Positions 9,959 to 34,073 of a stretch of DNA of 42,986 nucleotides are shown here, one piece after another. Within the stretch, counting starts at the first letter, position 1. Every line of letters starts with the position of its first letter. The DNA is from a virus, in the IMG/VR virus record IMGVR_UViG_3300046318_000380, positions 1 to 42,986 of that record. One strand, written 5' to 3'. The notes below the pieces were generated by a model that was given only the letters and a program-made list of their open reading frames with translations, did not search any database and was not told the origin of the DNA. A program made the position numbers and the translations under genes.

Positions 9959-12900
9959 TTATAATCCTTGAATAACTGTTCCGTCGTCTAATGTTAATGG
10001 AGTGAAATTTTCATCTGTTAAATCAAGATCTCCTCCATAATAATAACTATCAGGTAATTCTGCACCTTTTGCTCGTAAAAACACAGCTTGTTCAACATTG
10101 CTAGATAATAGAGAATCAGATGTCCATATTTTTCCTTGTCGTTGTATTATAGTTATTCTTGTTCCTGCAGTAATTTCTTCATTAATATTTAACATTAATT
10201 GTTGTGTAGATGTAGTTATATAAAATTCCGGTTCAATTATTGTTATACTTGCATCAGAATTGTCATAAGAAATATTACTATCATTAATTTCAATTTCTGT
10301 CTTTCTTAGTTTTCTTCCTCCATAATATACTTCAACTTGATCTACTGCATTAATAGTCGGCAACAGCGAAATCCCGTCACCTATTACTCCTTCTGAAAAT
10401 GTAAGAGTTGATGCGCTAATTATATAGGTAGTTGTATTCGAACTTGGTATATTTTGTTCTAATACATATTCAACTGTGTTAATAGTTTGTTTAATACTTT
10501 GATCTATCACTGTGGTGCCTGCCTGGGAATAATAAGCAGGGCCTGTACCTAAGGTACTTCTTCTAAGTTGAGAAAGAACATTTCCATTTTTAGAAAAATA
10601 TTCAATTCTTTCTCCATCTATCAAAATTACTCCAGGTAAATTTTGAGCAGGATTTGGATGAGTTAAACTATTAGCATTTTTAAGATATATTTCAGTATCT
10701 GTATGGTACAACGGAGATTCTAATTTCGTTGAATGATATTTTGATAGTCTCTTATAATGCTGCCTTCCAAATATATCTTTAAAAATTCTATAACCAATCA
10801 GATGACCGGCTGATAACGGTGGATTAATAGTTGCGATAATAACCTCATCTTCTGGATTGGTATCAATTAAATCGCTAACATTAATAGTCATATAATTATC
10901 TTGAAGATAGAATTCCTGACCATTAACTAACATTCGATCTCCAATTGTAACCCATACATAATTTTGATTCAACACAGGAAGACTTAATTTATATTCTCTC
11001 GCAAGATTTTGCTGAAAACGTTCTGTGCGAATATTCATATTTTCATTGTTAGTGAAAGATATTATCTGAAGAGTAGTATCAGAAATACCAGGTGTAAAAT
11101 AAACATTATTTCCAATTACAATATAATCATAGTTTATTAAACTTTCAATTGCTATTATATCTCCCAATTTTAAAAGATTATTAATGATAGTAATTGTTTC
11201 GTTTGCAGAATTTACATTATAATCAAACCCCGGACGTAAAATAACTCCATTAACATATACTTTTATATTTGTTAAATTATAAACATTAGGGCTATTTTTT
11301 TTGTTGTCTATATCAAACGTTATAGTATTATCGTTAACTTGGTAATAACTTACAGATGGTGGACGTAATCTACGACGAGATGTCATTGGGCCAACTGTTA
11401 CTATTACTTGAGAACTATACGGTTCAAGCGCCGATGGATATAACACAAGCGATTGAGATGAAACCGTAGTTCCTGTGGATATTACATATGTCTCTTCGTT
11501 AAATTTATTAAATTCAGCAAACATTGATTTAAAAAACCAAGCTTCAACATTAAATTTTCCAATAGTTGCAGGAAGAATTACAGCAACAGATGCCCTATTA
11601 TTTTGTGGATGTACAGGTCCTAGTATATAGCCTACGCCACTTCCGGTATAAGGGAATATTTCAACACCGTTAACTGTAACGTATACTGAATTAATATCGT
11701 CAATATTTAATAAACTAGATACAGTTGCAGTAGCAGTTGTTGCAGTTTTATTATCAACGGCTACGTATCCAGAATCCATTTGAGAATAATCTCCAGAGTA
11801 TCCTGCAAACACAGTAGTATAAAATGCTCTTCCATTTTCTATTTGAGGAGCTAATATCAACGTAGATCCATCTAAGAAATATTGATTAGTGTTAGTAAAT
11901 TGTGCCGATACTGCTCTTTCAAACAATGTTCCATTAAAATACACTAATATACCAATTGCATTATCGGGTTCAATAGGAACTAACCAATTGGTAGTTTCTC
12001 CTGCAATAACTGGAATAGAACCAGAAATAACTGTAGGAGATGTAGTTCCGGGATTTGTATAAACGTTAATACCAACACTATCCATTGTATGTCCGGGCAC
12101 AAATTCTTCAGGTGCATAACTAGAATTTGGATTGATAAATTTGTCACCATCGATTACAATATCCTCGGGTGCTATTCCTAGTGCACCCGACAATGTTTCA
12201 TTCCATGCACCGCCATTAATCTCAGAATCTAAGCTAGATGGAGAATCATTATTTGACCATAATTCTACTGTTAAGAATCCTAATAATGAAATATCAATTT
12301 CTGTATTAACTAATGGATCTAGCCCGTCAATTGTAATAATTGCCTTTGGTGGAATACTGTTGCTAGGTACTAGTGTCCATCCGGTGTATGTCGGAGATGC
12401 ATTTATACCTAATGCGGTAATTTCGGAATAAGGTGCATATGTATTAATAATAACGGTACTTGTACCAATCGATGTAGTCAATATATTATCTAATAAATTT
12501 GTAGATGGATTTATATCCATTGTTACAGAATAAATTCTAGCAATTGATAATGTCGAAACTTCAGCTGTAGTCGTAGATAATATAGATGTTGCAGTAACAC
12601 TAAATGTATTATTAGAGCAAGTGGATATCACATATTCATTTTCATATCCACTTGTTGCAATTCCTGATACTAATACTGTGTCACCTACTTTAAAATCTCC
12701 ATTAAAGTTATCCTTAGTTACAAAAACAATAGTTGAGCCCGGCATAACATTGTTAGCTGTTGCCTTACTAATAGTATAACTAGGAGATGAAATTGTTATT
12801 ACATTTGTTAATGAATTTATTGATTCAACAGTTGTACCACTTCTAATAGCAGTAGCATGTACTGAATCTAAAATTGATATATTTTGTCCAGGAATAATTC

Positions 12901-15900
12901 CATGTACGTCTGAAAGTCGAAGCGTTGTATCTGATTTACTTACACTACTTGTTAATTTTGATTTTGCATAGGTACTGATTAAATTACCCCATGGTGCGGT
13001 ATCAAATGATGAGGTTCCCCATGGCGCTGTCTCATTAAAAGTCAATCCTTGCAGTTCAGTTTGAGGATATTCAAGTCCAGACATTAACATGGAATATTCT
13101 TTTCCTGCCATTGTATTTGTAGGGCTGTAATATTTGTCAATCCTATCAATTGCATTAAATAAATCTATATTTTTATTATATGTAATTTTAAATAATTGTC
13201 CTTCTGCTGGAATGTAATTTAAAAATACAAATCTAGAATATTTCTTAGAATACCCTGCATATTCTTCTGTATAATATTCTATATTGTAATCTGCAGATAA
13301 TACAAGTTTTCCATCGACTGTTGGAACAATTTTTAATTTATCAAAATCTGCAAGCCATGATAATATAAATTTATTTTTATCTCCTTGACATATAAAAGTA
13401 TCAGTAACAGAAATATCTTCAATTTCTGATTTCTTAGAAATTCTATCAAATCTCATACCAATAATGTTACTTCTAACTTTATCGTTAGATATAATAGGTG
13501 ATGCTGTTGCAACAGATGTAACATTAGGTCCACCATTAGATATAACAATGTACGGACTTATGGTATAATTACTTCCTGGATTTGTAACTATTATATCATA
13601 CACTGACCCATTTCTAATATAAGCTGTTGCAGATGCACCTGTTCCTGTATCACCGGGATATGTAATGATATTCACTGTCGGATTTTGAGTATATCCTGAC
13701 CCTTTATTAGCAATCTCTACGCGATCGACTTTAAATTTATAATTTTCTGCCCAAGATTTATACGGTGTTTCTAGCAGTAAAGGATCTCCGGGTTCTACTA
13801 TTGTAAATTTGTTAGTTTCTGTATTAAAATACGACGGTACATCAAAATCTGTAATTTGTGCTGCGCCTATTTCTCCTGAAAAATTATCAAGAACCGTATA
13901 ATTAGACGAATACCCTCTTATATTTGTATGATATGGTTTAACTTCTTTTATATATTTTTCAAAATACTCTTCATTATTCAACTTGTAAACAGGACGCTGA
14001 TCTAATGATCCTAATATGTTTTGAACATTTATAAATGAAGTTTTAAATGCCCAATCTAATAATTTTTGTTCTGTTAATGCATACTTTACCGCAGCAAAGA
14101 AAAACAAATTCCAATTAACTTTTAATGTATTAATGAATATTTCATTCTTTAATGCCAATAAAATATAATACAATTCTAGATCGGGTATTTGATCGTACAA
14201 TGTCTCTTCTAACGTTGCTTTATCGTACGCATACATCCCAGAATCATAGTCCCATAATGTATCTAATAATTGCACAGTCCCTTCTTCGCTATATACAATA
14301 TTGTACAATGGACTAAAATTACCATTAATAGTTTTTTCAAGAATAATGTATTTTCCTGATCCATTATTGTTAACTTTAACATATTCCAAATCGGTAATTT
14401 CAGTTAATGAATTTAATTCATATAAATCTGAAACAGTGTATTTTATATTCTTAAATTCATTATAACTGCTACTTTGCCAATCTATTTTTTTCCAATATAA
14501 TGGAGTATTATAGGATTGAGTTTTAATTCTGATCCAGTTACCCGTTGAATAATCATATGAATGTTTTGTCCATCTATTTCCATATTCTGCATTAACTTGA
14601 ACAATTACAGTATGCGATCTAACTTCTAACGTTGGAGTAACTGTAAAATTATATCCTGCATCAAATATAGTAACATTAACTATACTGCCGTATTCATTTA
14701 ATTCTGTTAATAAAGAAGCTGTATTCTTAGTATTAGATATTATTTTTACAGATGGTGGATTTCTATATCCAAATCCAGGATCTATAATATCAACACCATA
14801 AATTTTTCCGTTAACAACAGTACAGGTTAATTTAGCTTGTTTAAAATTAACGGTTTCAACTTCTCCTAACGTTTCAACATCCTCAACAATTAAATCATAT
14901 TCTCTCGAATAGATGTCAGGAATTTCTTCTTTCTTATTCAATAAATTAAATGAATAGTTACCTGTAATTTCATTACTCAATAATACAGAATTTGCAAAAG
15001 TTATTAGATTTCTTACAGCTTGCAATCTATCTTTGAATAATGTCTGCTGAGGCCTAATTCCTATGCCGTATCTATTCCTTGAAGTTAAGTTGTTAGAAGG
15101 AACTAAATTTCCATGTTCATCGTGCCCTAATAAACTATCAAATAATTTCTTTTCTAATAGTGTATTAGGAACACTATTTGCTACACCTTCGGTTAATAAT
15201 AACCATTCTGTATGTCTAGGAATATTATTATCAATTGTATCTGTTGCAATAGATGCATTAATTCTATTGCCAGATAATATAGGTTGTACATTTGCAAATG
15301 CAATAGTATCCTTTGACAATATTTCTACAAATTTTAGTCCATTTGCAACAGGATCTGCAATTATAGATGCTACCTGATAACTACTTAATCTTCTATTTTT
15401 AACACTAGGTATTACAACTTTATTTTTTACCCAGAAATAATATACATTTTCAAAACTTCCTGTTACATTATTGTAAATTTGTTTAACAGAAATAATACTA
15501 TTATCTGGGTATTTAGGTTGCCCACTTATACCTCGAGTTAATCCATCTGTCGTATCTGCTACTGCTGCCCATTCACTAGGCAACACATCTGATTTAACCC
15601 ATTCATATACATCAATAGTTGCTCCAGGAAATAGCTTACCCCAATTATTTTTTCTAAAAATTTCACTACCTTGTTCATACCAGGTATATTTTGCTGTACT
15701 TAAATCCCACCATAAATCACCAACACGCTCGTCTAACCAATTTATTTCTGCGTCATTTACTGTACCTAATCTACCAATAGAATATACTGCTGGATCAAAT
15801 GCAGCTTTATATTTTAATTCTTGATCTGCTATTCCTGCAATTTTACCTTTCAATGGATCGATTACTTCGAGATACTCAATAATTTCTTCATCAAATGAAT

Positions 15901-18900
15901 TAATTAATGAAATTCTTTTTAATCTCGAGACATCTACTGTATCTTCTTGTTCGTGTAAAACATTCCAGCTGTTAACAGTTTGATCAATTTTATCAAATAT
16001 AAACAACTTAGATGTATCAGGATATGATGTTTCTATATACGAAGGAGCACCTACATATATTGCATCATTTGTAGATGCTACAGAATTTCCAAATCTACTT
16101 CCACTAATTACTTGAGAGTTTGATATTTCATCTGCAGGAACAAAATACTCTCCTAATCTGTTGTAAACATAAACTTCTCCGGCATCCAGAATAGGACCTG
16201 TAAATTGTGTCGTATTACTATCAAATGTTGTTTCGCCCGATTCTGACAATAAATCAAATTTCATTAATTTAGATCTATTTGTTCCTAAAGAACTTATTAC
16301 CAATGTATCTTCGTTTTCATTGATAGAAATAGAAGATCCAAATTTTAAATCATTATAAGACACAGGGTTCGATACTATCTGCCACAAAGAATATTGTCCA
16401 TTGCTTTGGATTTTATATATTGATACTTTTCCTTTAGACTCATCTACCGAAGAATATTCCGGATCAGCAACAATTAAATATTTTCCAGATGCAGATACTG
16501 TTAAATCTAGACCAAATCTACCATTAACATCGTAAGGAGGATTAATAGTCTGGTTCAATACAAATGTATTATTTGTTGCGGTATAAACTACAACTTTTCC
16601 TGTTGAAGAAAAGTCAGGTGCACTAATAGCAATAATAGACCCATTACTTGAACCAGCTATTTTATATCCCCATTTATCACCAGCAGTTAAACCAGCTGGC
16701 GACGGAAATGATATTCCTCCCGGATGAGCAGATACTGATACAGTACCATTATTTTTATTCAAATGATATGCATATACCTTTCCTGGTAAACTAGCAGCAG
16801 AAGTATCATCGCCTGGTGCTCCTATAAGCAACATAGTAGAAGTTGTAGCAGATACCTGACTAACAAATATCGAATGCCCAAATCTAGAATGTGCAGCAGC
16901 ATAAGGGTGCGCTATAACAGCATTTGTTATTTCTTCATTAAACTTTGTATTGTTGGTGCTAATTTTTACTAAACCTTCAACTGCATAAGAACGAGTATAG
17001 CCAGACCCTGTGCTTAAAATTACCACTCCTGTTGTATTAGCAGCAACTACGTTAGATGCAGCAGGTGCTCCTGCAATATATAATTCTTTAGCAGCGTCAT
17101 GTGCCAGCGAATATCCAAATTCAGTTACCAATGAAGATGAACAATATAAGATATCGTGACTGTTTATTGTATGTTCAAAATCTTTACGATAAGCATTTTC
17201 AATTTTTGTAAATGCTTGTACTCTACCTAAACTAGATGTACCTGTGGTATTCCAACTCGGCGATGAAACCATCATTATAGGAGAATTATCAGATGCATAC
17301 ACAGTATGTCCAAGTTGTTGACCTAAAATATAATCATTTGATTCTATATATTTTGCAGAATAATTTTTAATTTTTTCATAAACTTGCCATTTTCCGCCTA
17401 GCCCTTGATCAACCCAAAATTTTTCACCTTCTTCCAATTTTAGTAAATCATTATAATTTGCTAGATCTTCAAAATCTGCATACCTCGATTCATCAAATTT
17501 AAAAAGAGCGCCGTATGCAAGTAGTTCTGCATTTTCAATAGATGTTAGGCTAGATAGTACTGTAAATTGATTTAATTTAGGCACACTCGAAACTACATGT
17601 ACACCATTTACCTGTTCATTAAAGTTAACAACAGATACAATGTCTCCTACTGATAATCCATGGTGTGTATCTGTTACAAAGGTAATAGCAGCTCCAGGTG
17701 AACTTACAAACACTCCGGCAACATCAGAAGATTGTCTTATATATCTATAAACGCTCCAGTCTCCATTTTCTAAAAACCCTACCCAAAATGTATTACCTTG
17801 CTGAATAATAGAATTATTTGCAATATCTAACAAACTAGATTTATTATAAGCAGTTGCAGTTACATCATCTAATCTAACATACCCTGCTGTAGTTAATTCC
17901 AAATTAGTATCTGTCCATGTGCCAGCAGACGTAATAAACGTAGCTGTAGATACATATTCATCGGGTGTTATTAAACAATCCGTTGGTTGAATATAATTTA
18001 TTAAAGGATCTTGTTGATCCGGCATAGAATTAACAAATTTAACTAGGTATGGATTTTCTAAAGAAGTTCCTTCAGTTAATGTAAATTCAAGTTCATTATA
18101 AGTTTCAAAACCACCGTAATGCCCGGCCCTAAACGCCCATTCTTCATTAAATTGAATTGCACCTTTATCTAATGTTTGACTTGCCTTAGATAATTTGTCA
18201 ATTGAATTTTTTGTGCCTTTATCTTTAATAAATCCTTGATAAAATTTGTATTGACTAATAGGGTTGGTAAAAATGTTATCAAGATATGTTCTCGGAGTAT
18301 AACCTATTAAATGCTGGGCTAATTGTTGCTGATTGTAATCAAAATTATCAATATCAAGACTGTAAAAATCTTCAAATTGATTTATTTTATAATCAAAATT
18401 AGGAAGTAGTCCAGCTACTGGTTTTTCAGGAAGTTTTACCCATTGTGCAAAATCAAATTCTCTAGAATTTAATACTTTAGATATAGATTCATAATAAGAA
18501 CCATTATATCTAACAACTTCGCCTGGTAAGTAAACTTGATATGATTTCCAGTCTGTTATTTCTACAGAATCGTATACAAATCCAGGACTATACAAATCAC
18601 CATTCCAATTTCTTGTTCTAAATCCAGATAATTTAATTCTACGTTGTTTGTAACCCGATTCAGGATCATAAATTGTATCATTAAAAATCGTAGAATTATT
18701 GAATACCAATGCATGTTCTTTTTGTACAGAATTCAATGTGGCAAAAAATAATCCTTCTTCTGTATTAATAGAAGATATAGTACAATACCCGTCTTCCCTA
18801 GATAAAGTAAATTTATCAATAGGGAATGGTTTTCCATCAGCCTTTAACAAGCTGTATTCATATTTTCCTGATGAAATATTATCAACAACAGAATTTACAA

Positions 18901-21900
18901 ATTGATATTTTAATTTGTCAGAGAATGGACTTAATGTAATTAAATTATTATTTGCCCAATTTTGTGTTGTCCAATATAGAAATTCTTTTCCTGTAAATTT
19001 CCAATCTATTACCTCTCCAAGGTCTGAATTAAATTCATCAAAAATAAATCCTTGACTCTCTAACCATGCACCGTATCCAACGATTACATCATACACATCT
19101 TGCGATGTTGTAAATTCTGATCCATAAGTAATCTTTGCAGATGTTGATTCAAATCTCGACGGCAATTGTACAGATGCTCCTCCTTTTACAGGTAGAGAAC
19201 TTAATTGCTGAAATACAGTAGCATTAAAATTAGCTTCAGCAGTATGTCCAATTTTAACTCTATAAAATTTTCCATTATATCTTACTACCTGTCCTTGCTT
19301 ATAATACCGAGATGTAGGGTTAGCATTTGCTGTGGTGTTATCTATTGCAGAAAGCCCTGTATTGCCATTATTTACAGTACCTGTCCATTCTGTAAATGGT
19401 TCAGATATTCCACCTACTGTTACAGTACCGGAAACTGATGATTTAATAGGTTTTAAAATTTCAAAATACGGTTCTGAAACATTATATCCTTTAATTACAA
19501 AATTTCCATTAACTTTTTGTACCACAATGCCAGAAATGCTAATTGATTTTATAGGATTACTAATATTTAATATTAATGAATAATCTTCTGGTGGCAATAA
19601 CAATCCAGGACTAGTTGATATAGGATCTATAGAATCAATAGTAATCTGTAATTTCTCTTTGCTAGTAAATCCTCCGAGTTTGTGGAATAAATTAAAATCA
19701 AAATATTCAAGATCTTGTGCTAATTCTGTTGTATAATTTTGATTTTTTAATTTACCTATTTCTGCAATATATACCCCGAACCCTGCTAATTGATTACCAT
19801 TCTGTCCTTCAATCAACAGTTTTCTAGGATTAAGATATAAATCGTCCTGAGTATATGTAACTTGATTTAAGGAATTTATTTGCGTTCTACTTACATCATA
19901 CATTTTTGAACAATAAGATAATGGATCAAGTAATGCAGCAAGAATATTAGAAACAAAAGGCCAATAGCTACTACGTCTCCATGCAGTTTCCGCAGGAGAT
20001 TGATCTCCAAAAGACCAAGCCGATTTAGTATCATAATAATTAGTATCAGATATTAAAAACTCAGATGGAGTTTTTAGCTTTCCGTCGTCATCTACTGGAA
20101 TAATTAATGAAAAATCAGGTCTAGCATAATTATCATTTATCTTAGTCGATGGTGGCTCATCTGTATATCCTAATGTAATTGCATTAATTAATGCTGTCCT
20201 TTTAGAACCTGGCGTCCAACTATAATATGTATCCCACCAACTAGGTTTATTATCATGTCCTAACATTTCCCACGGGTGAGTATGTGGTTGATCAGTATCA
20301 AAGAAATATTTGTACAATCCTCTCCAGAATCCAGAGACCTGAGTTTTAAAAACTGTATCAATTCCATTTTTATAATTCCATGAGAATGGTTCTCCTTCGT
20401 CAAAAGAAAGGTTAGAATATGTGTCTACACCATTCATTCCTGCCCATCTAATATAATCTTCTATTAAAATAGAATTAACATCAGATGTAGAAAATTTAGT
20501 ATCTCTAAATGCACCAGGAATAATACTTTTTATATCAAAAATATTAGAGTTATATTTTACTTTTATATTGTTGTAAATTCTCTTTTCTAATTCCAATATG
20601 ATTAAATCTCTATAATCATTATATGCAGCCATTATGCTACCATCATGCCCTTTAATAACTGTAACAGAACCAGAAATATATGTTAAATCTTGATAAATTT
20701 CAGGTTTAAATGCAGGATATAATCCTAATTTTGTAGGGGTCGGAGGAATATATGATCCTAATGTATTCGAATATACATGAATTGCAATTTTATCATTAAT
20801 TGTTAATTCTGTTAATATATTAATGGATCCATTTATTTTATCAAATATATAATCGCTATCTACAATCATCTGAATATCATTAATATATACCAAAACAGAT
20901 TGAAAACTCAATAACGATAAATCAAAGTCAATACCTACAGGATACTCGACATTTTCAACATCTGTTACAGTAAATGTACGTATTATTTTATCTTGTCCAA
21001 ATCCTGCCATGTCAGATCGATAGTATGGAGATCTATAATCTTTTACATTATTAATTTCATTTAAAACATAATCAAGCGCCATTGATGCAGATAATTGACC
21101 ATCTACTTTTGATAAAGTTCTTAAAAAGTTTGATTTAAATTGGTTGTAGTGATTTGCAGATTGTCTTAGCGCATCTACTACATTATGTTCTTTTTTACCT
21201 AAAAATATTTCTGCAAAAGAGATTGGATTTGCATTAACAATTAACCTAGTTCCAAATTTTGTATAGTCTGCAAAGTCTCTAAAATTAGATCCAGTATATC
21301 CTAATATTCCATTCATCATTGTGGTAGCATGATCGGATAATTCGCTAAATGTTATGTCCGATATTGGCCCATTTAATGGATTATTAATAAGAGATATAGG
21401 AGTTTCATAAAACCCATTACTATTTGGTGTTTGGTTTGTTATTATTTTAAATAGTATCGTTTTGTCTTTAGCAACGGTATTGCTAAAATTTACAATCACT
21501 CGGTCAGCTGTTGCAGTAAAAGTTGACGGTATTTTTACGTCGTTAATATATGCTGTTACCGATAATGGAGTATCAATAGGCAAATCTAAAGAAGTGAGAT
21601 ATACACTATTTGTTGCAGTTGTTAGAGTTTGAATTTCTACAATAGGAACTTGATAATTTTCTGCTTCTTTCCAGACATTGGTAAGTGTACCTGTTCCGTC
21701 AAGATTATTAATCTTAAGATACGTCACAGATGTAGATACTAATTTACTTTGATTATTTGCTACAACAGTTATAGAATCTGTCATAAAATAATTGTTAAAC
21801 AAATAACTTCCTACACCTACACTATTTTGATATAATAACGGAAACCCTAGTACTGTATCTGCTGTGCCAGACCCAACAGAATATCCAAAAATTTTATTTC

Positions 21901-23236
21901 CAGAAAAATTGTTAGTATCAGTAACTTTGGTATAGCTTACTCCAAATGAATCAAATAAATCAAATAACGGAGGCTGATTTAATTTGTTATGCTGCTGAGA
22001 AAATATCCATTTTCCTTCATCTATATCGTAATACCAACTAGTACCTGCATATGCATTTCCAAAGTTTACTGCTATAGAATTCATATCATCAGGTGTAGAA
22101 TCTTCACTTAAAGTAATTGTAGGTGATAGCCCTGCTGAATATGCTACTTTATATATTTTTCCCCTAACATTGTTATCTCCGTCTGCATTAAAAATTATTC
22201 TATCCCCGTGCTGTAATAAAGTCCCATCAACATAATAACCATGGGACCCATTTACTGTTTCCAATGCATTAGTAGTTGTAACATCCATATATTCAACATT
22301 CTTGATTCCGGTGTTACCAAATTTATAAAGCTGTATATTAGCTACAAATTCAATGATAGGGCGTTGTGCTCTAGAATTTAATGGAAATACAGGTGTTGTA
22401 TCATTGATATTTGCTATAATTTCTATTATTTCTTTGTGAAACCATCTATTATAACGAGACCATGGATTTAAATCTTTACTAGCACGATTAATGGTAATAT
22501 ATTCAGCATTTAACGGGAGACGCTTATCACCATCAAAAGGATAATCATCAAAACTATCAGAATCAAATGTTTCATTATAAAAAACATTCATAGATTCATA
22601 ACCACTTAATAAATTATAATCAATAAGTTTTATCGATGATCCTACTCCTTCAACAATATAGGTATTGTTCCAATACATCTGTTGCAATGTATTTTTTGCA
22701 AATGAAATTTTCATTCCATTCGATAATTTATATCCGTTACTCATTGTGTATGATTGCTGGCCTACTATGTCAACATCAACATTTAAATCAATTTGATCAA
22801 CAAGAATAGGACTTGGACCTTCTGGTAACCAATAATATTGATTATAATTTACCAATTTGTCCCAATCAATTAATGGATCGTATGAATAAAATTTAGAACG
22901 TAATAATGTGTCTACATTACTTGTATTTGCACCTTGATTATAAAGATCATTTAAAAAATCGTCATATGATATTGCATCTGTAATATTAGAATTTTGATCT
23001 TTGAAAACTAATGCAGGTTCTAAAGAATAATTATTTCTAAAAGATAAAACGTCTTTTAAATAAAAATCAGTTAATGGATTATAATTGGGAGTTATTTTAG
23101 ATCCTATATATCCATCGATTCGTTCTAAATCAGGAGTTTGTATAAATTGATCTAATGTACTTGATAAAAATTTTGAATTTTTATCTGTTCTAAAATATTC
23201 TGGTAATAAATTAACCGATTTCTTTTTATCTGCCAT
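9959..23236 (-). CDS. Giant baseplate/tail structural protein (4425 aa) with integrin-like propeller
   Basis: This single uninterrupted frame of 13.3 kb is almost a third of the window. Its N-terminus (LLPEYFRTDKNSKFLSSTLD, then DWDKLVNYNQYYWLPEGP) matches the very large structural proteins that follow gp6 in T4-like aquatic phages. The sequence is a mosaic: several VYVNGV-type beta domains, a 7-repeat FG-GAP propeller at about 1965-2420, GxGYxxxPxV repeats (for example GFGYRNPPSV, GSGYTQNPTV) around residues 2800-3250, and a C-terminal KxTEIEINDSNI region. Also visible is KPYHTNIRGYSSNY, a motif I recall from phage structural proteins. T4 has gp7, gp8 and gp10 after gp6; this protein may take over peripheral wedge roles, which is inference. 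Translation is probably coupled to gp6 (1-bp gap). Confidence 0.85.
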   Translation of the reverse strand: MADKKKSVNLLPEYFRTDKNSKFLSSTLDQFIQTPDLERIDGYIGSKITPNYNPLTDFYLKDVLSFRNNYSLEPALVFKDQNSNITDAISYDDFLNDLYNQGANTSNVDTLLRSKFYSYDPLIDWDKLVNYNQYYWLPEGPSPILVDQIDLNVDVDIVGQQSYTMSNGYKLSNGMKISFAKNTLQQMYWNNTYIVEGVGSSIKLIDYNLLSGYESMNVFYNETFDSDSFDDYPFDGDKRLPLNAEYITINRASKDLNPWSRYNRWFHKEIIEIIANINDTTPVFPLNSRAQRPIIEFVANIQLYKFGNTGIKNVEYMDVTTTNALETVNGSHGYYVDGTLLQHGDRIIFNADGDNNVRGKIYKVAYSAGLSPTITLSEDSTPDDMNSIAVNFGNAYAGTSWYYDIDEGKWIFSQQHNKLNQPPLFDLFDSFGVSYTKVTDTNNFSGNKIFGYSVGSGTADTVLGFPLLYQNSVGVGSYLFNNYFMTDSITVVANNQSKLVSTSVTYLKINNLDGTGTLTNVWKEAENYQVPIVEIQTLTTATNSVYLTSLDLPIDTPLSVTAYINDVKIPSTFTATADRVIVNFSNTVAKDKTILFKIITNQTPNSNGFYETPISLINNPLNGPISDITFSELSDHATTMMNGILGYTGSNFRDFADYTKFGTRLIVNANPISFAEIFLGKKEHNVVDALRQSANHYNQFKSNFLRTLSKVDGQLSASMALDYVLNEINNVKDYRSPYYRSDMAGFGQDKIIRTFTVTDVENVEYPVGIDFDLSLLSFQSVLVYINDIQMIVDSDYIFDKINGSINILTELTINDKIAIHVYSNTLGSYIPPTPTKLGLYPAFKPEIYQDLTYISGSVTVIKGHDGSIMAAYNDYRDLIILELEKRIYNNIKVKYNSNIFDIKSIIPGAFRDTKFSTSDVNSILIEDYIRWAGMNGVDTYSNLSFDEGEPFSWNYKNGIDTVFKTQVSGFWRGLYKYFFDTDQPHTHPWEMLGHDNKPSWWDTYYSWTPGSKRTALINAITLGYTDEPPSTKINDNYARPDFSLIIPVDDDGKLKTPSEFLISDTNYYDTKSAWSFGDQSPAETAWRRSSYWPFVSNILAALLDPLSYCSKMYDVSRTQINSLNQVTYTQDDLYLNPRKLLIEGQNGNQLAGFGVYIAEIGKLKNQNYTTELAQDLEYFDFNLFHKLGGFTSKEKLQITIDSIDPISTSPGLLLPPEDYSLILNISNPIKSISISGIVVQKVNGNFVIKGYNVSEPYFEILKPIKSSVSGTVTVGGISEPFTEWTGTVNNGNTGLSAIDNTTANANPTSRYYKQGQVVRYNGKFYRVKIGHTAEANFNATVFQQLSSLPVKGGASVQLPSRFESTSAKITYGSEFTTSQDVYDVIVGYGAWLESQGFIFDEFNSDLGEVIDWKFTGKEFLYWTTQNWANNNLITLSPFSDKLKYQFVNSVVDNISSGKYEYSLLKADGKPFPIDKFTLSREDGYCTISSINTEEGLFFATLNSVQKEHALVFNNSTIFNDTIYDPESGYKQRRIKLSGFRTRNWNGDLYSPGFVYDSVEITDWKSYQVYLPGEVVRYNGSYYESISKVLNSREFDFAQWVKLPEKPVAGLLPNFDYKINQFEDFYSLDIDNFDYNQQQLAQHLIGYTPRTYLDNIFTNPISQYKFYQGFIKDKGTKNSIDKLSKASQTLDKGAIQFNEEWAFRAGHYGGFETYNELEFTLTEGTSLENPYLVKFVNSMPDQQDPLINYIQPTDCLITPDEYVSTATFITSAGTWTDTNLELTTAGYVRLDDVTATAYNKSSLLDIANNSIIQQGNTFWVGFLENGDWSVYRYIRQSSDVAGVFVSSPGAAITFVTDTHHGLSVGDIVSVVNFNEQVNGVHVVSSVPKLNQFTVLSSLTSIENAELLAYGALFKFDESRYADFEDLANYNDLLKLEEGEKFWVDQGLGGKWQVYEKIKNYSAKYIESNDYILGQQLGHTVYASDNSPIMMVSSPSWNTTGTSSLGRVQAFTKIENAYRKDFEHTINSHDILYCSSSLVTEFGYSLAHDAAKELYIAGAPAASNVVAANTTGVVILSTGSGYTRSYAVEGLVKISTNNTKFNEEITNAVIAHPYAAAHSRFGHSIFVSQVSATTSTMLLIGAPGDDTSAASLPGKVYAYHLNKNNGTVSVSAHPGGISFPSPAGLTAGDKWGYKIAGSSNGSIIAISAPDFSSTGKVVVYTATNNTFVLNQTINPPYDVNGRFGLDLTVSASGKYLIVADPEYSSVDESKGKVSIYKIQSNGQYSLWQIVSNPVSYNDLKFGSSISINENEDTLVISSLGTNRSKLMKFDLLSESGETTFDSNTTQFTGPILDAGEVYVYNRLGEYFVPADEISNSQVISGSRFGNSVASTNDAIYVGAPSYIETSYPDTSKLFIFDKIDQTVNSWNVLHEQEDTVDVSRLKRISLINSFDEEIIEYLEVIDPLKGKIAGIADQELKYKAAFDPAVYSIGRLGTVNDAEINWLDERVGDLWWDLSTAKYTWYEQGSEIFRKNNWGKLFPGATIDVYEWVKSDVLPSEWAAVADTTDGLTRGISGQPKYPDNSIISVKQIYNNVTGSFENVYYFWVKNKVVIPSVKNRRLSSYQVASIIADPVANGLKFVEILSKDTIAFANVQPILSGNRINASIATDTIDNNIPRHTEWLLLTEGVANSVPNTLLEKKLFDSLLGHDEHGNLVPSNNLTSRNRYGIGIRPQQTLFKDRLQAVRNLITFANSVLLSNEITGNYSFNLLNKKEEIPDIYSREYDLIVEDVETLGEVETVNFKQAKLTCTVVNGKIYGVDIIDPGFGYRNPPSVKIISNTKNTASLLTELNEYGSIVNVTIFDAGYNFTVTPTLEVRSHTVIVQVNAEYGNRWTKHSYDYSTGNWIRIKTQSYNTPLYWKKIDWQSSSYNEFKNIKYTVSDLYELNSLTEITDLEYVKVNNNGSGKYIILEKTINGNFSPLYNIVYSEEGTVQLLDTLWDYDSGMYAYDKATLEETLYDQIPDLELYYILLALKNEIFINTLKVNWNLFFFAAVKYALTEQKLLDWAFKTSFINVQNILGSLDQRPVYKLNNEEYFEKYIKEVKPYHTNIRGYSSNYTVLDNFSGEIGAAQITDFDVPSYFNTETNKFTIVEPGDPLLLETPYKSWAENYKFKVDRVEIANKGSGYTQNPTVNIITYPGDTGTGASATAYIRNGSVYDIIVTNPGSNYTISPYIVISNGGPNVTSVATASPIISNDKVRSNIIGMRFDRISKKSEIEDISVTDTFICQGDKNKFILSWLADFDKLKIVPTVDGKLVLSADYNIEYYTEEYAGYSKKYSRFVFLNYIPAEGQLFKITYNKNIDLFNAIDRIDKYYSPTNTMAGKEYSMLMSGLEYPQTELQGLTFNETAPWGTSSFDTAPWGNLISTYAKSKLTSSVSKSDTTLRLSDVHGIIPGQNISILDSVHATAIRSGTTVESINSLTNVITISSPSYTISKATANNVMPGSTIVFVTKDNFNGDFKVGDTVLVSGIATSGYENEYVISTCSNNTFSVTATSILSTTTAEVSTLSIARIYSVTMDINPSTNLLDNILTTSIGTSTVIINTYAPYSEITALGINASPTYTGWTLVPSNSIPPKAIITIDGLDPLVNTEIDISLLGFLTVELWSNNDSPSSLDSEINGGAWNETLSGALGIAPEDIVIDGDKFINPNSSYAPEEFVPGHTMDSVGINVYTNPGTTSPTVISGSIPVIAGETTNWLVPIEPDNAIGILVYFNGTLFERAVSAQFTNTNQYFLDGSTLILAPQIENGRAFYTTVFAGYSGDYSQMDSGYVAVDNKTATTATATVSSLLNIDDINSVYVTVNGVEIFPYTGSGVGYILGPVHPQNNRASVAVILPATIGKFNVEAWFFKSMFAEFNKFNEETYVISTGTTVSSQSLVLYPSALEPYSSQVIVTVGPMTSRRRLRPPSVSYYQVNDNTITFDIDNKKNSPNVYNLTNIKVYVNGVILRPGFDYNVNSANETITIINNLLKLGDIIAIESLINYDYIVIGNNVYFTPGISDTTLQIISFTNNENMNIRTERFQQNLAREYKLSLPVLNQNYVWVTIGDRMLVNGQEFYLQDNYMTINVSDLIDTNPEDEVIIATINPPLSAGHLIGYRIFKDIFGRQHYKRLSKYHSTKLESPLYHTDTEIYLKNANSLTHPNPAQNLPGVILIDGERIEYFSKNGNVLSQLRRSTLGTGPAYYSQAGTTVIDQSIKQTINTVEYVLEQNIPSSNTTTYIISASTLTFSEGVIGDGISLLPTINAVDQVEVYYGGRKLRKTEIEINDSNISYDNSDASITIIEPEFYITTSTQQLMLNINEEITAGTRITIIQRQGKIWTSDSLLSSNVEQAVFLRAKGAELPDSYYYGGDLDLTDENFTPLTLDDGTVIQGL
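15960..17340 (-). other. Region encoding seven FG-GAP-like repeats (integrin-like beta-propeller)
   Basis: Within the giant protein (residues about 1965-2420) seven consecutive repeats share the pattern xxFGxSV...(15-20)...xhhIGAP...G-hhhY. Cores in order are GQQLGHTVYAS/MMVSSP, TEFGYSLAH/LYIAGAP, SRFGHSIFV/LLIGAP, DKWGYKIAG/IAISAP, GRFGLDLTV/LIVADP, LKFGSSISI/LVISSL and SRFGNSVAS/IYVGAP. Integrin alpha and related FG-GAP domains use exactly seven such blades. Placement of the propeller in a baseplate wedge protein suggests a ligand- or glycan-binding face, which is inference. Confidence 0.75.
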
Positions 23237-23237
23237 T

Positions 23238-26200
23238 TTAAATTCCGGTAGTTGTTATAATTGTTGAAGAAGTCTTTAACTGCGATGCTGTTACAGCATC
23301 AATGATTTCAATATCAGATACAGTTGCTCCACTTATGAAGAGTTCGTTTGATAAACATGCAACTTCGAAATAACTTCCAAAAGGCGCATTTCCCTTCGGA
23401 ACTATAATAAAGTTAGTAAGATCAGGCGTTAGTTGATTCATTACATAGGTTGATAATTCACTAAAATAAAATGATTGTCCAAAATCCCAATTTTCTAGAG
23501 CAAAAAAACTATTAATTGCAGAAAGAATTCTCGTCTTCAAATCATTATCAGTAGTAGACTTTGATGAGTTACGCACAGCTTTAAATTTTGCTCTTAAATT
23601 TACAGGAGCATTATCACCAAATAATATTTTATATTTCACAGGATGAAAAACTATTTCATCACTGATTGCTTTTTTTAGTTTTAATGTTTCGCCGTAATTT
23701 TGTTCTAATTCTTGGCTAGTTGGTGCTAGTGGTTCTTTAGAAAGTGTGCCTGACGCCCAATTTCTAAAATCATTATCATAGTTTAGTGTCAAGACATAGA
23801 TATCAATTATGTTAGATTTACTAGGATCTATCCTTCTTTCTTTTCCACTATTATGAATATAATGAAATTTTAAATCCGATCTACCTGTGCGTGCAAAATA
23901 TTCATCTGTATAAACCAAGCTAGATGTAACTGTAGACCAATATTTAACAACATTAATAGAAGGATCATAAAAATAAAACTTTTGAGTATCTATTTTATTT
24001 TCATCAATAACTTTATCCTCTGTAGGATATGCAATAAATTCATCTCTGTCGGCTAACGAGTAACGTTGCCCGTCTGCAGATTTCTTAAAATAAACAAAAT
24101 TTTCTCTAAAGGTAGTTTCTGTACTTGTTGATAATGGTTGTACAATGTTATTAAATGATTCAGGATCAATAATTTGACCAACATCGTTATAATCATAAAA
24201 ACTTATCTTTACTTTTTTAGGTTGAATATACCCATCATATTCTACCACAGGACCATCTATTTGCCATGATTGATCTACGCCTAGATTAGAATTTAAACTA
24301 GTATTAATAGATAATACATCTATTTTATCTTTTATAACCGTGTTATTAGTAAAGTCATAATTTATAGCAGTTTCGTCAATAAAAAATGCAGTTTCTTTTT
24401 CACTTTCAAAAATATAATCTAATACTCTATATCTAACTTGATAAGATTTTCCAGTCCAAACAAATGCTACTAACCAACTAGAATCTATACCTATATCCTC
24501 ATAATTATTTTGATTAACTAGGCTAAAAGAATCTGTTATATTTAAATTAGAATTTGTTATAATATCCCATGTTCTAGATATAGAATCTATTGTCAATCCA
24601 AAATTTCTCTGAGTCATGCAAATATTTGCAACTTCGTTTTCAATTGAAAATTTTAATACATCTATATATCTAGGGATAATTTCTACAGGTATTGCACCGG
24701 TCGGAACAATTGAAGAAAAAATGATGGGCCCTGTACCGTCTTCAAGTTTTCCTATGCCACTATTGGAGCCATCACCTATAACTTGCTGCACTCTTGACCA
24801 TATGTATGATCTTCCTCCTTGAGGAATTCCTCCACTAGGTATCGTTTTTAAATTATTTTTTTGATCAAAATATTTTCCAGTTGGCGGATTGAATTTAATT
24901 AAAGACCCTACCTGAAAATATTGTAAATTTTCTTCAGCATATGACCCTACAGATTGAATCCCTAATGCATTACTAATATATCCTCTACTTTGTCCAGGAG
25001 TTCTGTTTACTTCTGTCCAGGTTAATGATAATAATTCTAAATTAGGATTATTATATTTTTCAAAATAAAATGATCTCATTGAAGTTGCAGAAATCATAGG
25101 AGCTAATGAATTCTTAATAAATGCAAGCACTTGATTTCTACTGGTAAATTCTAACTCACTAAATTCATCCCGTTCTTCTTGATATAAAATACCATCGTTG
25201 GCAAATATATTTGTTCTACTATAACTGCCGCTTACATCTGACAAATCAAAATACTTGCTTAACCCGCTTGATATTCTGTTTACACTTTTAATTTTTAGAA
25301 TATCTGTTCCTGCTGTTAACGGTGTTATATTATAATCTTCACCGGTTATCATTCGATTCTGAGTATAATAAGACTGAGGTGCTTTTAATTGTATGCTTGC
25401 ATTTGATTCAGGACCAGAGGCATTAGATACTGTATATTGCAAACTCATGGTCAACTGAAGGGTATGAGTTCTACCAGACGCGTTGGTATAAGGAACTTCG
25501 ATTACTACTCCACTCATCTGTTCAGGTTTAATTACATATGTTAACCCGTTACTTTGCCTATAAAATAATCTAAAATTTCCTTTTGGCAAATCACCAAACA
25601 CCCCGTCAGCAAAGTTTAAATCTATTTGATCGTTATCTCTAGAGGTAACTGCATAAATGGTCCTTAAATTTTTATTAAGACTATTATATATAACATTATT
25701 TCCTATAACAGATGGTACTTGTGTCCACAGGGTATCAAAGTTATCATTATTATCTAATTGCCATACCCATACATCTGTATTGTTTATATCAGGTGTATTA
25801 ACTCCTACTATTTCATTTGGCACAGGATTATCTAAACTAAATCTAGCCAGACTTATAGATCCTTGTTTAAAATGTGTAAAGAATCCTGTATCTGCACTGC
25901 CAGATCCTTGATTATCGTTTTTATATATAATACTAAACTGTTGTGCAGGTGCTGGAGGCTGCTCGTATACATAATCTTTTCCTGAAAATGTACAAGGTAC
26001 AATTTCAAATGACATTGGTATACCATTTATATTTTTAGAAAAATTAAAAATAGGAACATCTATATTTGCACTACTAATTTTATATTGTTCAGTAGCAATG
26101 CCGCTGATTGTTTGTCGATCAGATGGATTTCCAAAATTAGAATTCATAGCAGAATTCATAATATTAATAAATTGTTGATACCAATCTGGATTGGTTGCAT

Positions 26201-26633
26201 CATTCCAACCAATAGTTGTATTTGCTAAATTAACACCATTAGAATCATATACATTATCACTGGTAGATATAGCTGTTAATTTTAAAAATCCACTTGCAGG
26301 AGTATTTCTTGCAGGATTATAACTAATTAGTTGTGCAAGACGTAAAATACTGTCTCTTCGTTGTGCGGTTTCTAAAAAATTTTCTCTAGCATTTAAATCA
26401 ACTCTGAAACTTAAATTTTGTCCCAAATAGGCAATTAAATCAATTAATGCAATGTATTCACTAGAGTCAATAAAATCGTTAAATTCTTCGGGATAATTTT
26501 CGCGAAGATAAGAAATCATAGTTCTTCTTAATGTTTCGAAATCATAACTTTTAAAGTCTGCACTTCGAAAAGATTGGTATATTTTTTTCCAATCTTCACT
26601 AACCAGTAATTTTGTATTTGTAGCAGGAATCAT
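23238..26633 (-). CDS. gp6: Baseplate wedge protein gp6 (T4 gp6 family, enlarged)
   Basis: The N-terminus is diagnostic for T4 gp6: FRSADFKSYDFETLRRTMIS, then YPEEFNDFIDSSEYIALIDL, LIAYLGQNLSFRVDLNAREN and QRRDSILRLAQLISYNPARN (residues about 22-110). T4 gp6 forms the continuous inner ring of the baseplate wedges that controls contraction. At 1131 residues this copy is far longer than T4 gp6 (about 660), with extra material in the middle and C-terminal parts. The end carries a LKTRILSAINSFFALENWDF segment and FIIVPKG, typical of the gp6/J-like C-terminal domain. It follows gp25 after a 49-bp gap that holds a late-promoter-like octamer. Confidence 0.95.
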   Translation of the reverse strand: MIPATNTKLLVSEDWKKIYQSFRSADFKSYDFETLRRTMISYLRENYPEEFNDFIDSSEYIALIDLIAYLGQNLSFRVDLNARENFLETAQRRDSILRLAQLISYNPARNTPASGFLKLTAISTSDNVYDSNGVNLANTTIGWNDATNPDWYQQFINIMNSAMNSNFGNPSDRQTISGIATEQYKISSANIDVPIFNFSKNINGIPMSFEIVPCTFSGKDYVYEQPPAPAQQFSIIYKNDNQGSGSADTGFFTHFKQGSISLARFSLDNPVPNEIVGVNTPDINNTDVWVWQLDNNDNFDTLWTQVPSVIGNNVIYNSLNKNLRTIYAVTSRDNDQIDLNFADGVFGDLPKGNFRLFYRQSNGLTYVIKPEQMSGVVIEVPYTNASGRTHTLQLTMSLQYTVSNASGPESNASIQLKAPQSYYTQNRMITGEDYNITPLTAGTDILKIKSVNRISSGLSKYFDLSDVSGSYSRTNIFANDGILYQEERDEFSELEFTSRNQVLAFIKNSLAPMISATSMRSFYFEKYNNPNLELLSLTWTEVNRTPGQSRGYISNALGIQSVGSYAEENLQYFQVGSLIKFNPPTGKYFDQKNNLKTIPSGGIPQGGRSYIWSRVQQVIGDGSNSGIGKLEDGTGPIIFSSIVPTGAIPVEIIPRYIDVLKFSIENEVANICMTQRNFGLTIDSISRTWDIITNSNLNITDSFSLVNQNNYEDIGIDSSWLVAFVWTGKSYQVRYRVLDYIFESEKETAFFIDETAINYDFTNNTVIKDKIDVLSINTSLNSNLGVDQSWQIDGPVVEYDGYIQPKKVKISFYDYNDVGQIIDPESFNNIVQPLSTSTETTFRENFVYFKKSADGQRYSLADRDEFIAYPTEDKVIDENKIDTQKFYFYDPSINVVKYWSTVTSSLVYTDEYFARTGRSDLKFHYIHNSGKERRIDPSKSNIIDIYVLTLNYDNDFRNWASGTLSKEPLAPTSQELEQNYGETLKLKKAISDEIVFHPVKYKILFGDNAPVNLRAKFKAVRNSSKSTTDNDLKTRILSAINSFFALENWDFGQSFYFSELSTYVMNQLTPDLTNFIIVPKGNAPFGSYFEVACLSNELFISGATVSDIEIIDAVTASQLKTSSTIITTTGI

Positions 26634-26682: not shown

Positions 26683-27120
26683 TTATTCAGCTCGTAGGCC
26701 AATTTTTTGATCAAACGCCAACTTTAATGTAGTTGATTGATCAATGCCTTTTAACGCCAATGTTATTTCAACTAGGTATCCCTGTTCATACTCATTTATA
26801 TCCAACTGCAAAGGATATACACGACTGTCAAATGTACAAATCGACTCTATATCTTTTGTAAGAAGTTCTTTTACTTGTTCTGTTAATGGTTCCATTAACA
26901 GATCCCAAATAATTGTACCAAACGTTGGATTCATTACACGCTGACCTTTGCGTGTATTAAAATGATTTAATATATTTTGTTTAATTAAATCAAAATCGTA
27001 TAGTTTAGACCCATAATTCGTAGGATCTACTGTACTAAATCCTTTATAAAATTGTCCTAACTTATCAGTATGTTGTATACTGTAATTTGACGTATTGATT
27101 TCTGTATTTTTATATGGCAT
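26683..27120 (-). CDS. gp25: Baseplate wedge protein gp25 (gp25/W lysozyme-like fold)
   Basis: A 145-residue member of the gp25-like sheath-initiator/wedge family, close to T4 gp25 in length. The diagnostic element is at residues 50-80: ILNHFNTRKGQRVMNPTFG followed by IIWDLLMEPLT, corresponding to the G-x-R...P-x-FG...EP core. The N-terminus contains FSTVDPTNYGSKLYDFDLIK, the usual strand that ties gp25 to its partners. In contractile machines gp25 binds gp6 and starts sheath polymerisation, and here the gp25-gp6 gene adjacency is kept. The gene starts 11 bp after the gp5 stop. No Shine-Dalgarno sequence is seen. Confidence 0.95.
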   Translation of the reverse strand: MPYKNTEINTSNYSIQHTDKLGQFYKGFSTVDPTNYGSKLYDFDLIKQNILNHFNTRKGQRVMNPTFGTIIWDLLMEPLTEQVKELLTKDIESICTFDSRVYPLQLDINEYEQGYLVEITLALKGIDQSTTLKLAFDQKIGLRAE

Positions 27121-27125
27121 ACCAT

Positions 27126-27133
27126 TATTTATT
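27126..27133 (-). promoter_or_regulatory. Weak late promoter candidate AATAAATA ahead of gp25
   Basis: The minus-strand octamer overlaps the gp5 stop codon. T4 spacing would place the RNA start at 27120, on the A of the gp25 ATG, giving a leaderless message. Because TAATAAAT is common at stop codons in AT-rich DNA, chance is a serious alternative. Confidence 0.25.
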
Positions 27134-29423
27134 ACCCGCCCGAACCTGTTTTAATTGGGTTTCCTTGACCGTCTGTAACTATGCCACCGTTACCAGAACT
27201 CCATGTAGATCCTGATAATTGCCCTAGAAAACACTCATAATACCCTTTCTTTTTTGCCTTAATATCAGGAGTATTGTATCCAACTGCCTTGCATGCTGCC
27301 TCAAAATATCCAGTGTCAGTTTGTGAAAGTTTACATCTATCTAACATATACTTAACACTAACTTCTGCTGCAATAGTAGCATCAGATAATAATTTAGGAT
27401 TAGCAATCAGGTCCTGTCCTATCATTGCGCCATACTTTGCATAGTTAGATCTGCCAGTAAGTTGTATATAACCTCTTCCGATAAACTTGCCACCATCACC
27501 TGCTTGAGTGTTTCCTAATCCCTTGCCTTTAGCTGTAGTATAACCATATAAAAATTCTGGCAAACTGTTATTAGGATTTCCTGCATATTGTTTAGCAAGA
27601 TCAGCATCTCCCTTAAACACACTAGGAAATACTTGCAACAATCTATCTGCGCTATAATTAAAACCTTCTTCAACTAATTTCCATCTGCATTCGCCACCTG
27701 CAATTCCTAACAATGCTGCAACTGCATACGGACTTGTTACTCCATATTTTGCACATGCTGCCTTAATGGCCGTGATACCTGCAATCGAACCACTAGCATT
27801 AATATCTTTAGCAAACTCTGCATTACAAGTTCCATTAACAACTTCCGGTTGATTTGCAGGTGTTTGTACAGATGCAGCAGGATTAGGTGGAACTCCAGAT
27901 GCGGATCTATCTGCCAAAGTTACATCAGTTGACTGAGGAGAAAATTGAGGAGGGTTTATATTTTCATGCTGAGGCCACGGTTCGTGAGTAGGAACACGTT
28001 GCATTATACTCTTTATATCTGTAGTTGCATAAAAGTTTTTGTTAGACCATCCTGCTGTTGATTTTCTATTTGGCAAACTAAACAATGGAAGATCTGGGGG
28101 AATATCCGCATTATCCGCAGCCGCAGGAGCAGCCGCAGCAGGCCCGTTTAAATGTATTGCTGCACCAGATGCTACTACATTACCATTTGCACCCAGATTT
28201 AAAGAAGATGCTGTCCCTAAATTAATGTTTCCTTCTGCTGCTATATTAACTGATGCTCCTGCACTTTGTTTAATGTCATTTGCAACATTTAAATTATAGG
28301 TATTTGCAATAGAAATTTTTGTTAGGCCACCAATTGTTTCATCATGGGTTCCACGTATTGAAATTTTTTGATCCGAATCAACGGTAAGATAATTATATCC
28401 TGCAATATTGGTCTCCATGTTTTTTCCGGCACGAACATGGATATTTCTTCCTGCTTCAAAGTTAATATCTCTATCTGCTCTAAAATTAAAATCTTGTTCA
28501 GTGTGTATACTAATGCTGTCTTGAGCAAAGATATCAATTTTTCCATTGCTAGTCATTTCTATCCAGGCAGTACCTTTACTGTTAGAAATATAAATCAAAT
28601 CACTACTATTATGCATTAATATTTGATGACCTGTCCTAGTTCTTAATCGTACCAATTCATTTTGTCCATTGATATCTCCATCATCCATAACAAAAGATGT
28701 GCCGCCTAAGCGACTAACTGGTGCTTGCGAATTTCCTTCATACCCAATTTTTCCACGTTTAGCCCCAGGACTATCATCTACTGGACCCGGAGTCGAAATG
28801 CCAAATACACTGCTAGGCACCTCTCGTCTGGCGCTACTCGAAGTAACTCCTCGTATCGTATCTGCTAATAAACCTTGTTGCAATAATCTATCTGCAAAAG
28901 GATGTATAGGTTTTGCATAACGTTCAGCGTTAGGATTATCTAAATTAGACTTAGATTTTTTGTGAAATTCTGCAACAGGTAGATATTCTACTCCATATTT
29001 GTCTAATTGTTCCTTAGTTGCTGCAACTTGTTTACTTGCAGCAATACCGGGTGTCATATGATTTTGATATACATCTTGAACACATCCGAACCAATAACCT
29101 TGGTTAGGATCACCATCAATAAAAATAACCATAACGGTAGTACCGATATCAGGAGGTACCATCCAAAAACCATAACTTTTCTGAACATCATTAAAATCAC
29201 TGCTATTTGTGCCTTCGTGTCTAATCGATGTATTTCCAGAAAATGGACTTAGATACCTAACTACATACGTTTCGCCCTGATCTTTTGTAGAGCTAGGCAT
29301 CCCTTTAATTAAAGCAACTTCAAGACATCCCATGTAGGTAGAATCTAAATGATTTGTTACTTCTGCCAAGAAGGGCCCAGGTGTAGGTAACGGTGAACGT
29401 TTTCTAGTCTCTATAAATTTCAT
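27132..29423 (-). CDS. gp5: Baseplate hub spike gp5 with C-terminal GH19-like lytic domain
   Basis: The 763-residue central spike protein of the cell-puncturing device. Residues about 17-125 form the gp5 OB-fold (GPFLAEVTNHLDSTYMGCLE, then VVRYLSPFSG and WFGCVQD). Residues about 240-425 hold the triple-stranded beta-helix, with repeats such as INFEAGRNIHVRAGKNM. After a Pro/Ala-rich linker comes a GH19/chitinase-like domain at about 545-737: LGIAGGECRWKLVEEGFNYS with Glu578 as candidate catalytic acid and Glu585/586 as second acid, RLLQVFPSVF, and GRGYIQLTGRSNY (649-661). T4 gp5 instead carries a GH24 lysozyme between OB-fold and helix. The enzyme probably cuts host peptidoglycan during tail penetration. 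Confidence 0.92.
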   Translation of the reverse strand: MKFIETRKRSPLPTPGPFLAEVTNHLDSTYMGCLEVALIKGMPSSTKDQGETYVVRYLSPFSGNTSIRHEGTNSSDFNDVQKSYGFWMVPPDIGTTVMVIFIDGDPNQGYWFGCVQDVYQNHMTPGIAASKQVAATKEQLDKYGVEYLPVAEFHKKSKSNLDNPNAERYAKPIHPFADRLLQQGLLADTIRGVTSSSARREVPSSVFGISTPGPVDDSPGAKRGKIGYEGNSQAPVSRLGGTSFVMDDGDINGQNELVRLRTRTGHQILMHNSSDLIYISNSKGTAWIEMTSNGKIDIFAQDSISIHTEQDFNFRADRDINFEAGRNIHVRAGKNMETNIAGYNYLTVDSDQKISIRGTHDETIGGLTKISIANTYNLNVANDIKQSAGASVNIAAEGNINLGTASSLNLGANGNVVASGAAIHLNGPAAAAPAAADNADIPPDLPLFSLPNRKSTAGWSNKNFYATTDIKSIMQRVPTHEPWPQHENINPPQFSPQSTDVTLADRSASGVPPNPAASVQTPANQPEVVNGTCNAEFAKDINASGSIAGITAIKAACAKYGVTSPYAVAALLGIAGGECRWKLVEEGFNYSADRLLQVFPSVFKGDADLAKQYAGNPNNSLPEFLYGYTTAKGKGLGNTQAGDGGKFIGRGYIQLTGRSNYAKYGAMIGQDLIANPKLLSDATIAAEVSVKYMLDRCKLSQTDTGYFEAACKAVGYNTPDIKAKKKGYYECFLGQLSGSTWSSGNGGIVTDGQGNPIKTGSGG

Positions 29424-33021: not shown

Positions 33022-33321
33022 TTATATTCCTAATACTCTTTTTAATGTCGACAGTTTAGGCAAATAAATTTTGCGACCAGCTTGTAAATCAAATATAGGA
33101 TCTTTAATTATTGATTTGTTTCTAACTGAAAAAACCCACCATAATTTTTCATCTTGATACAAATCGTATGCTAATAAATCAGGCCTATTATTGTAGGTCG
33201 ACGTAACTTCAAACAGAATATCGTCTCGCTCACTTGGTATGTCTCTAAAATTTAAAACATCTAAATATCCATTTACTATTTCTGTAACGGAGTATGGACT
33301 TGTTTTATTGTAAATAGGCAT
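33022..33321 (-). CDS. gp53: Baseplate wedge protein gp53
   Basis: A short wedge protein with the gp53 signature: ERDDILFEVTSTYNNRPDLL, then AYDLYQDEKLWWVFSVRN, DPIFDLQAGRKIYLP and a final LKRVLGI. In T4, gp53 clamps gp6, gp7 and gp25 near the hub. I choose the ATG at 33321 (MPIYNKTSPYSV): it overlaps the upstream stop as TAATG and has GGGGA about 8 bases upstream, so it is translationally coupled. A frame-consistent ATG at 33336 would add five residues and overlap more; it remains possible. The product is shorter than T4 gp53 (about 196 aa), as in other aquatic T4-like phages. Confidence 0.85.
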   Translation of the reverse strand: MPIYNKTSPYSVTEIVNGYLDVLNFRDIPSERDDILFEVTSTYNNRPDLLAYDLYQDEKLWWVFSVRNKSIIKDPIFDLQAGRKIYLPKLSTLKRVLGI

Positions 33322-34073
33322 TATAGGTGTCCCCATTTTCTATACTGATCACTGGTTAGATAATCAGTAACGTTAAATCGTTGCATTTCATCTCTGCTGT
33401 ACATCGGTAAACAGGTAATACTTATTGTAGATACTGTAGGAATAGAATTCATACCATGAGAATCTTCAGTACTTTGTGTGTAATGAGTAAAATAATCAAC
33501 AGCATCAGGAAGCTCTACTCGTAAACTTGTAATTGCAACAGGTACATTGTTTAACATGTATTCACCGTATGCATCTAATCTACATACAGGAGGTGGGGAC
33601 CCGCTATCTGGATCACCAGATCTAGCACCACCCGATCTCATTTTAGTCAATGCTCGTAACAAATGAATTGTTGCAATATAAAATTCTGCATCTTGACTAT
33701 TTTCAACTGTAAATTTTCCGCTGATACTAATAGGACTAACACTAGATTTTTGATAAAAGTTGATGGCAAAATTACTGTGCAACGGAGATTGCGCGGTATA
33801 ATCTGCTTTAAACTCATAACTTATAGTAGGAGTATACGGAAACAGTACACCGCCAAGTGATGACAACTTTGCTGTCTTTCCTTGAAGATAGCTTTCAGGC
33901 ACACGGATTTTTACTCGTAAATCTTTTCCTAACTTTGTTCCATTTATATCTTTAAATGTTATTGCTGGCCCAGGAGGTAATACAGGTTGTGCACCTTTAG
34001 GAACTCCAGGCACTGTACGTGCACCGTTAAAATTATTTAAAATAGATTTTGTTAAGTCAATTTCGTTATCCAT
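33321..34073 (-). CDS. Baseplate/tail-tube structural protein, gp48/gp54-like position (250 aa)
   Basis: First gene of the minus-strand tail block. It contains VLFPYTPTISYEFKADYTAQ, HLLRALTKMRSG, a Gly/Ser/Asp loop followed by SPPPVCRLDAYGEYMLNNVP, LRVELPDAVDYFTHYTQST and TVSTISITCLPMYSRDEMQRF. This layout (FPYTPTI...HxLRxxTKM...GxPPPVxRLxxYGxYMxNNVP...MYSR) is familiar from structural proteins of T4-like and other myoviruses, where it tends to be annotated only as virion protein. Tail-tube initiator or cap (T4 gp48/gp54) is a guess from position. The ATG has AGGA 7 bases upstream. It overlaps gp53 as TAATG. Confidence 0.65.
   Translation of the reverse strand: MDNEIDLTKSILNNFNGARTVPGVPKGAQPVLPPGPAITFKDINGTKLGKDLRVKIRVPESYLQGKTAKLSSLGGVLFPYTPTISYEFKADYTAQSPLHSNFAINFYQKSSVSPISISGKFTVENSQDAEFYIATIHLLRALTKMRSGGARSGDPDSGSPPPVCRLDAYGEYMLNNVPVAITSLRVELPDAVDYFTHYTQSTEDSHGMNSIPTVSTISITCLPMYSRDEMQRFNVTDYLTSDQYRKWGHL

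Follow-up and report, generated by a model that had tools for sequence, protein, structure and literature searches.

A giant virion-type protein of an uncultured jumbo phage carries seven FG-GAP repeats that are predicted to close into a seven-bladed propeller, and this propeller, judged by sequence comparison, occupies a variable site of a protein found across jumbo phages. The window analyzed here is the complete 42,986-nt stretch of IMG/VR record IMGVR_UViG_3300046318_000380. Its giant protein (4425 aa) is encoded at 9959..23236 on the minus strand, directly after a gp6-like wedge gene. The propeller covers residues 1975-2430 (15947..17314, minus strand), close to the 15960-17340 of the preliminary description, and its seven FG-GAP repeats proved real; they begin near residues 1975, 2040, 2119, 2189, 2241, 2299, and 2382.

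Seven FG-GAP repeats and the predicted fold

To score the repeats, blade profiles were aligned by hhalign with the FG-GAP_2 repeat profile of gp108 from Sinorhizobium phage Phosso. All blades lie on the minus strand. Blade 1 (residues 1975-2024, 17165..17314), blade 3 (residues 2118-2172, 16721..16885), blade 4 (residues 2188-2232, 16541..16675), blade 5 (residues 2240-2290, 16367..16519), blade 6 (residues 2298-2372, 16121..16345), and blade 7 (residues 2380-2430, 15947..16099) matched with probabilities of 97.5, 96.3, 94.9, 97.2, 95.7, and 96.2, respectively. Blade 2 (residues 2039-2110, 16907..17122), in which a long B-C loop is followed by a conserved EGLVKI, reached 76.2. The preliminary description had held that at least five of the seven repeats should resemble FG-GAP families, and six do so at 94.9-97.5. 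Forty stretches from the rest of the giant protein, aligned with the same profile as a control, reached a probability of 1.0 or less. An HMM of the Phosso repeats scored 45.8 bits on the propeller region and 6.7 bits on the best of 200 shuffles. The Pfam family FG-GAP_2 (PF14312) matched the excised propeller region with E=3.9e-7 (30.6 bits against a cut-off of 23) and was also matched by 14 of 15 aligned homologues, and the sequence profile of the propeller found integrin alpha-4 with E=7.2e-6. The classical FG-GAP family (PF01839) gave no match, and a single-sequence PDB search returned weak matches only, the best being a site-determining (MinD-type) protein (E=0.14), with integrin alpha-E at 0.46. 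The first wording of the repeat motif was loose: blade 1 opens with LGHT and blade 4 with WGYK, and the expected GAP reads SSP, SAP, ADP, and SSL in blades 1, 4, 5, and 6.

Structure prediction, which had been proposed as a check, came out in favor of the propeller. AlphaFold2 run with 15 sequences gave a model (pTM 0.80, mean pLDDT 74.1, some loops below 50) with 28 predicted strands that were assigned to seven four-stranded blades. When this model was searched against PDB folds, every one of the top 50 matches was an integrin alpha chain (E=1.8e-13 for the best, probability 1.0), with TM-scores by query length of 0.34-0.58. In a comparison with viral models, the folds matched include those of proteins from giant viruses, from Atu_ph07, and from cyanophage S-TIM5. 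The strands and fold matches of the model point to a closed seven-blade ring of the integrin alpha type. The opposing reading, that the repeats arose by chance or form an open beta-rich stretch, strikes us as very improbable. It could draw on the whole giant protein scoring 18.4 bits with PF14312, below the cut-off, as well as on the weak blade 2, the mean pLDDT of only 74 with its poorly predicted loops, and the moderate integrin TM-scores, but the shuffles and negative controls, the support from homologues, the seven blades of close relatives, and fold matches at probability 1.0 all count against it.

The best fold matches, integrin alpha propellers such as 5e6u and 3v4p, likewise consist of seven four-stranded FG-GAP blades. 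In contrast to these, the phage propeller is part of a phage protein, shares only about 10-15% identity, and lacks the DxDxDG calcium loops: this motif occurs nowhere in the window, and the A-B loops of the propeller are short (3-8 residues). Of the earlier term "integrin-like," the seven-blade fold therefore stands, on profiles and predicted structure, and the kinship in calcium loops does not. The propeller would be integrin-like in fold rather than a member of the integrin alpha family, and would represent an FG-GAP_2 subtype without calcium loops. Its repeat type is identical, by Pfam and hhalign, to that of PF14312 proteins including Phosso gp108. Whereas gp108 is a separate long repeat chain, the propeller of the window is a single seven-blade unit within the wedge-cluster giant. 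Phosso gp108 (L028:1-10332) itself shows FG-GAP_2 repeats in 15 stretches (E=4e-141) plus LamG-type stretches; it is a giant repeat protein apart from the wedge-cluster giant of that phage, which has no propeller.

A giant protein of the wedge cluster

By profile, the open reading frame 9959-23236 belongs to phrog_10938, a family of jumbo-phage giant virion structural proteins (E=4.3e-301). Virion proteins of jumbo-phage isolates match the giant protein in tblastn and blastp searches, and the matches include homologous flanks of the propeller. Such flanks are present in the giant virion proteins of PA5oct/Paride, RaK2, CBB, GAP32, Atu_ph07, and SCTP-2, which, where seen, also adjoin a gp6-like gene. 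Some relatives of the giant protein (L211 and similar) have open frames of up to 6568 residues. In the window, the cluster runs on the minus strand in the order gp53-like, gp5-like, gp25-like, gp6-like, giant. It comprises a baseplate wedge subunit (33022..33336; phrog_7145, E=5.5e-25) whose gp53 number is inferred from gene order, a gp5-like hub-lysozyme protein that also carries a GH19 chitinase-type stretch (27132..29423), a gp25-like wedge subunit (26683..27120; PF04965), and a gp6-like baseplate wedge subunit (23238..26633; phrog_10646, E=1.4e-283). A subtilase S8 family protein (7570-9243, minus strand) also lies within the structural gene run.

In T4, gp7 comes after gp6 in the wedge cluster, and the giant protein likewise follows the gp6-like gene. 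Profiles of its residues 1-830, 800-1750, and 2425-3160 found no T4 gp7 chain among PDB sequences. The original assignment as a T4-like wedge protein therefore survives in part: these three flanking profiles gave no gp7 sequence match, while gene order agrees with it, as does the mass spectrometric detection of the phage CBB orthologue, CBB_236, in virions (PMC5259590). Gene order is the evidence that points to the giant protein as the counterpart of T4 gp7, and synteny suggests its placement in the baseplate.

The giant protein also has a CBM5/12 chitin-binding-type module at residues 1312-1336 (19229..19303, minus strand; E=3.1e-8, two stretches), the second stretch probably lying near residue 1574, and profiles of this region match chitinase A1 and chitin-deacetylase modules. 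The CBM5/12 stretches fit a surface-binding role. One could propose from them that the propeller acts with these stretches on surface polysaccharide or chitin, as a lectin-like module that binds glycans, a proposal that gains something from propellers in other phage host-recognition proteins, such as the phi11 receptor-binding protein with its reportedly five-bladed beta-propeller. We consider this improbable, because no sugar-binding residues were identified in the propeller and the listed fold matches belong to integrins and include no lectin propeller. Another phage structural protein with a beta-propeller is the Kelch protein CBB_552 (PMC5259590). Both the phi11 protein and CBB_552 differ from the case described here in being separate proteins with other propeller families or blade numbers. 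Searches of open-access literature turned up no published FG-GAP propeller from the baseplate of a phage.

An optional domain at a variable site

Six isolate proteins were aligned with the giant protein (those of Paride, Atu_ph07, SCTP-2, Phosso, a Vibrio phage, and RaK2). All six keep both flanks and lack the propeller, and the site holds different or shorter sequence, roughly 130-370 residues or roughly 1500. A tblastn search of GenBank phages with the propeller gave a single weak match, to Phosso gp108. Among the nearest IMG/VR relatives, 79 were checked, and every one of them had blade matches. In a flank tree of 153 rows, one branch separates 144 environmental rows with the propeller from 9 without it, frequencies that are not natural ones because the sample consists of the best hits of two queries. 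The 9 rows include the six isolates. Initial labelling had given 12 rows without the propeller and 4 changes; relabelling of L233, L239, and L255, whose sequences, read afterwards, all contain FG-GAP repeats, left 9 rows and 1 change. Twelve rows with partial flank matches (L180, L182-186, L188-192, L225) were omitted. The tree has no known root, so gain and loss of the propeller look alike in it. Since the flanks are conserved in relatives without the propeller, it is an optional add-on, and the idea of a rigid joint for fibers is weakened as far as a general, essential part is meant.

Read by eye, seven blades are kept in nearly all of 35 aligned homologues. Fewer are detectable in divergent ones (L069, L073, and many of L152-L258), so the constancy of blade number, which had been suggested for comparison, holds for closer relatives only.

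Loop insertions and possible roles of the propeller

The propeller copy in the window is undecorated, with zero loop inserts, whereas closer relatives carry loop inserts of about 70-430 residues. Among 35 aligned homologues, insertions of at least 30 residues fall in loops 3C-3D (11), 5C-5D (8), 6D-7A (5), 7B-7C (4), and 2B-2C (1), and none falls in an A-B loop. A count of 12 for 3B-3C overlaps that for 3C-3D through an aligner gap within strand 3C and is read as 3C-3D. The C-D loop of blade 3 accommodates helical or beta inserts, and that of blade 5 up to about 430 added residues. In some integrins the alpha-I domain is inserted between blades 2 and 3, and the 6D-7A inserts of the phage relatives are comparable to it; the phage inserts differ in falling mostly in the C-D hairpins of blades 3 and 5. 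One helical module (L048:10724-11158 and relatives) is predicted to consist of two four-helix repeats (pLDDT 91). It had no fold match in the PDB (best E=3.1), no convincing Pfam family, and no match in GenBank phages. An IMG/VR scan found it almost only in contigs already known for the giant gene, and in 12 records searched it lies only within the giant open reading frame. Both the helical and the Ig-like inserts were run against Pfam as exact stretches; in a further Pfam check of inserts, three of five queries began with short stretches that are not exact translations of the genes.

We propose that the propeller is a side domain inserted into the giant virion protein of the wedge cluster and would form a platform exposed at the surface of the outer baseplate. 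In this platform the blades would act as a fixed scaffold, and certain edge loops, enlarged in relatives by helical, Ig-like, or beta modules, as exchangeable binding surfaces for contact with the host envelope or for holding fibers. In our estimate, this picture of an integrin-type baseplate scaffold with exchangeable surfaces for host or fiber contact has an even chance of being correct. The earlier suggestion of a ligand-binding disc is plausible. By meander topology, the C-D loops would share one face and the B-C and D-A loops the opposite one; inserts would then occur on both faces, so the topology does not single out one outward-facing face for binding. Two further points weigh against the platform: the copy in the window has no insert, and neutral tolerance would likewise produce loop insertions.

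The main rival to host contact is a structural docking hub, in which the propeller would bind adjacent baseplate or fiber subunits inside the virion. We rate this as less probable, yet a serious contender. In its favor, conservation is high across the seven blades and in some loops, as in an interface, and the B-C loop of blade 6 holds a recurrent TTFDxxxTxF element (16202-16231), with a TxFD..TxF element like it in 80 of 145 propeller-bearing relatives. This element could serve host or fiber contact as well as docking within the virion. Against docking, the isolates without the propeller retain the flanks and infect their hosts, which makes it dispensable for the shared core, and large variable inserts fit a free surface better.

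Returning to the exchangeable scaffold, a bolder extension, which we regard as doubtful though possible, is that a large clade of jumbo phages, uncultured so far, uses an integrin-type baseplate propeller as a standard chassis whose loops exchange modules for recognition, among them a helical domain with a fold not yet on record, giving a modular host-contact device distinct from tail fibers. If the proposed role is true, many environmental phages have, within a protein of the baseplate cluster, an adhesion-type fold that is familiar chiefly from animal integrins and that varies in these phages through loop insertion. The propeller would then account for part of the size of the giant virion proteins and would be a specific candidate, accessible to testing, for the means by which uncultured jumbo phages make contact with their hosts.
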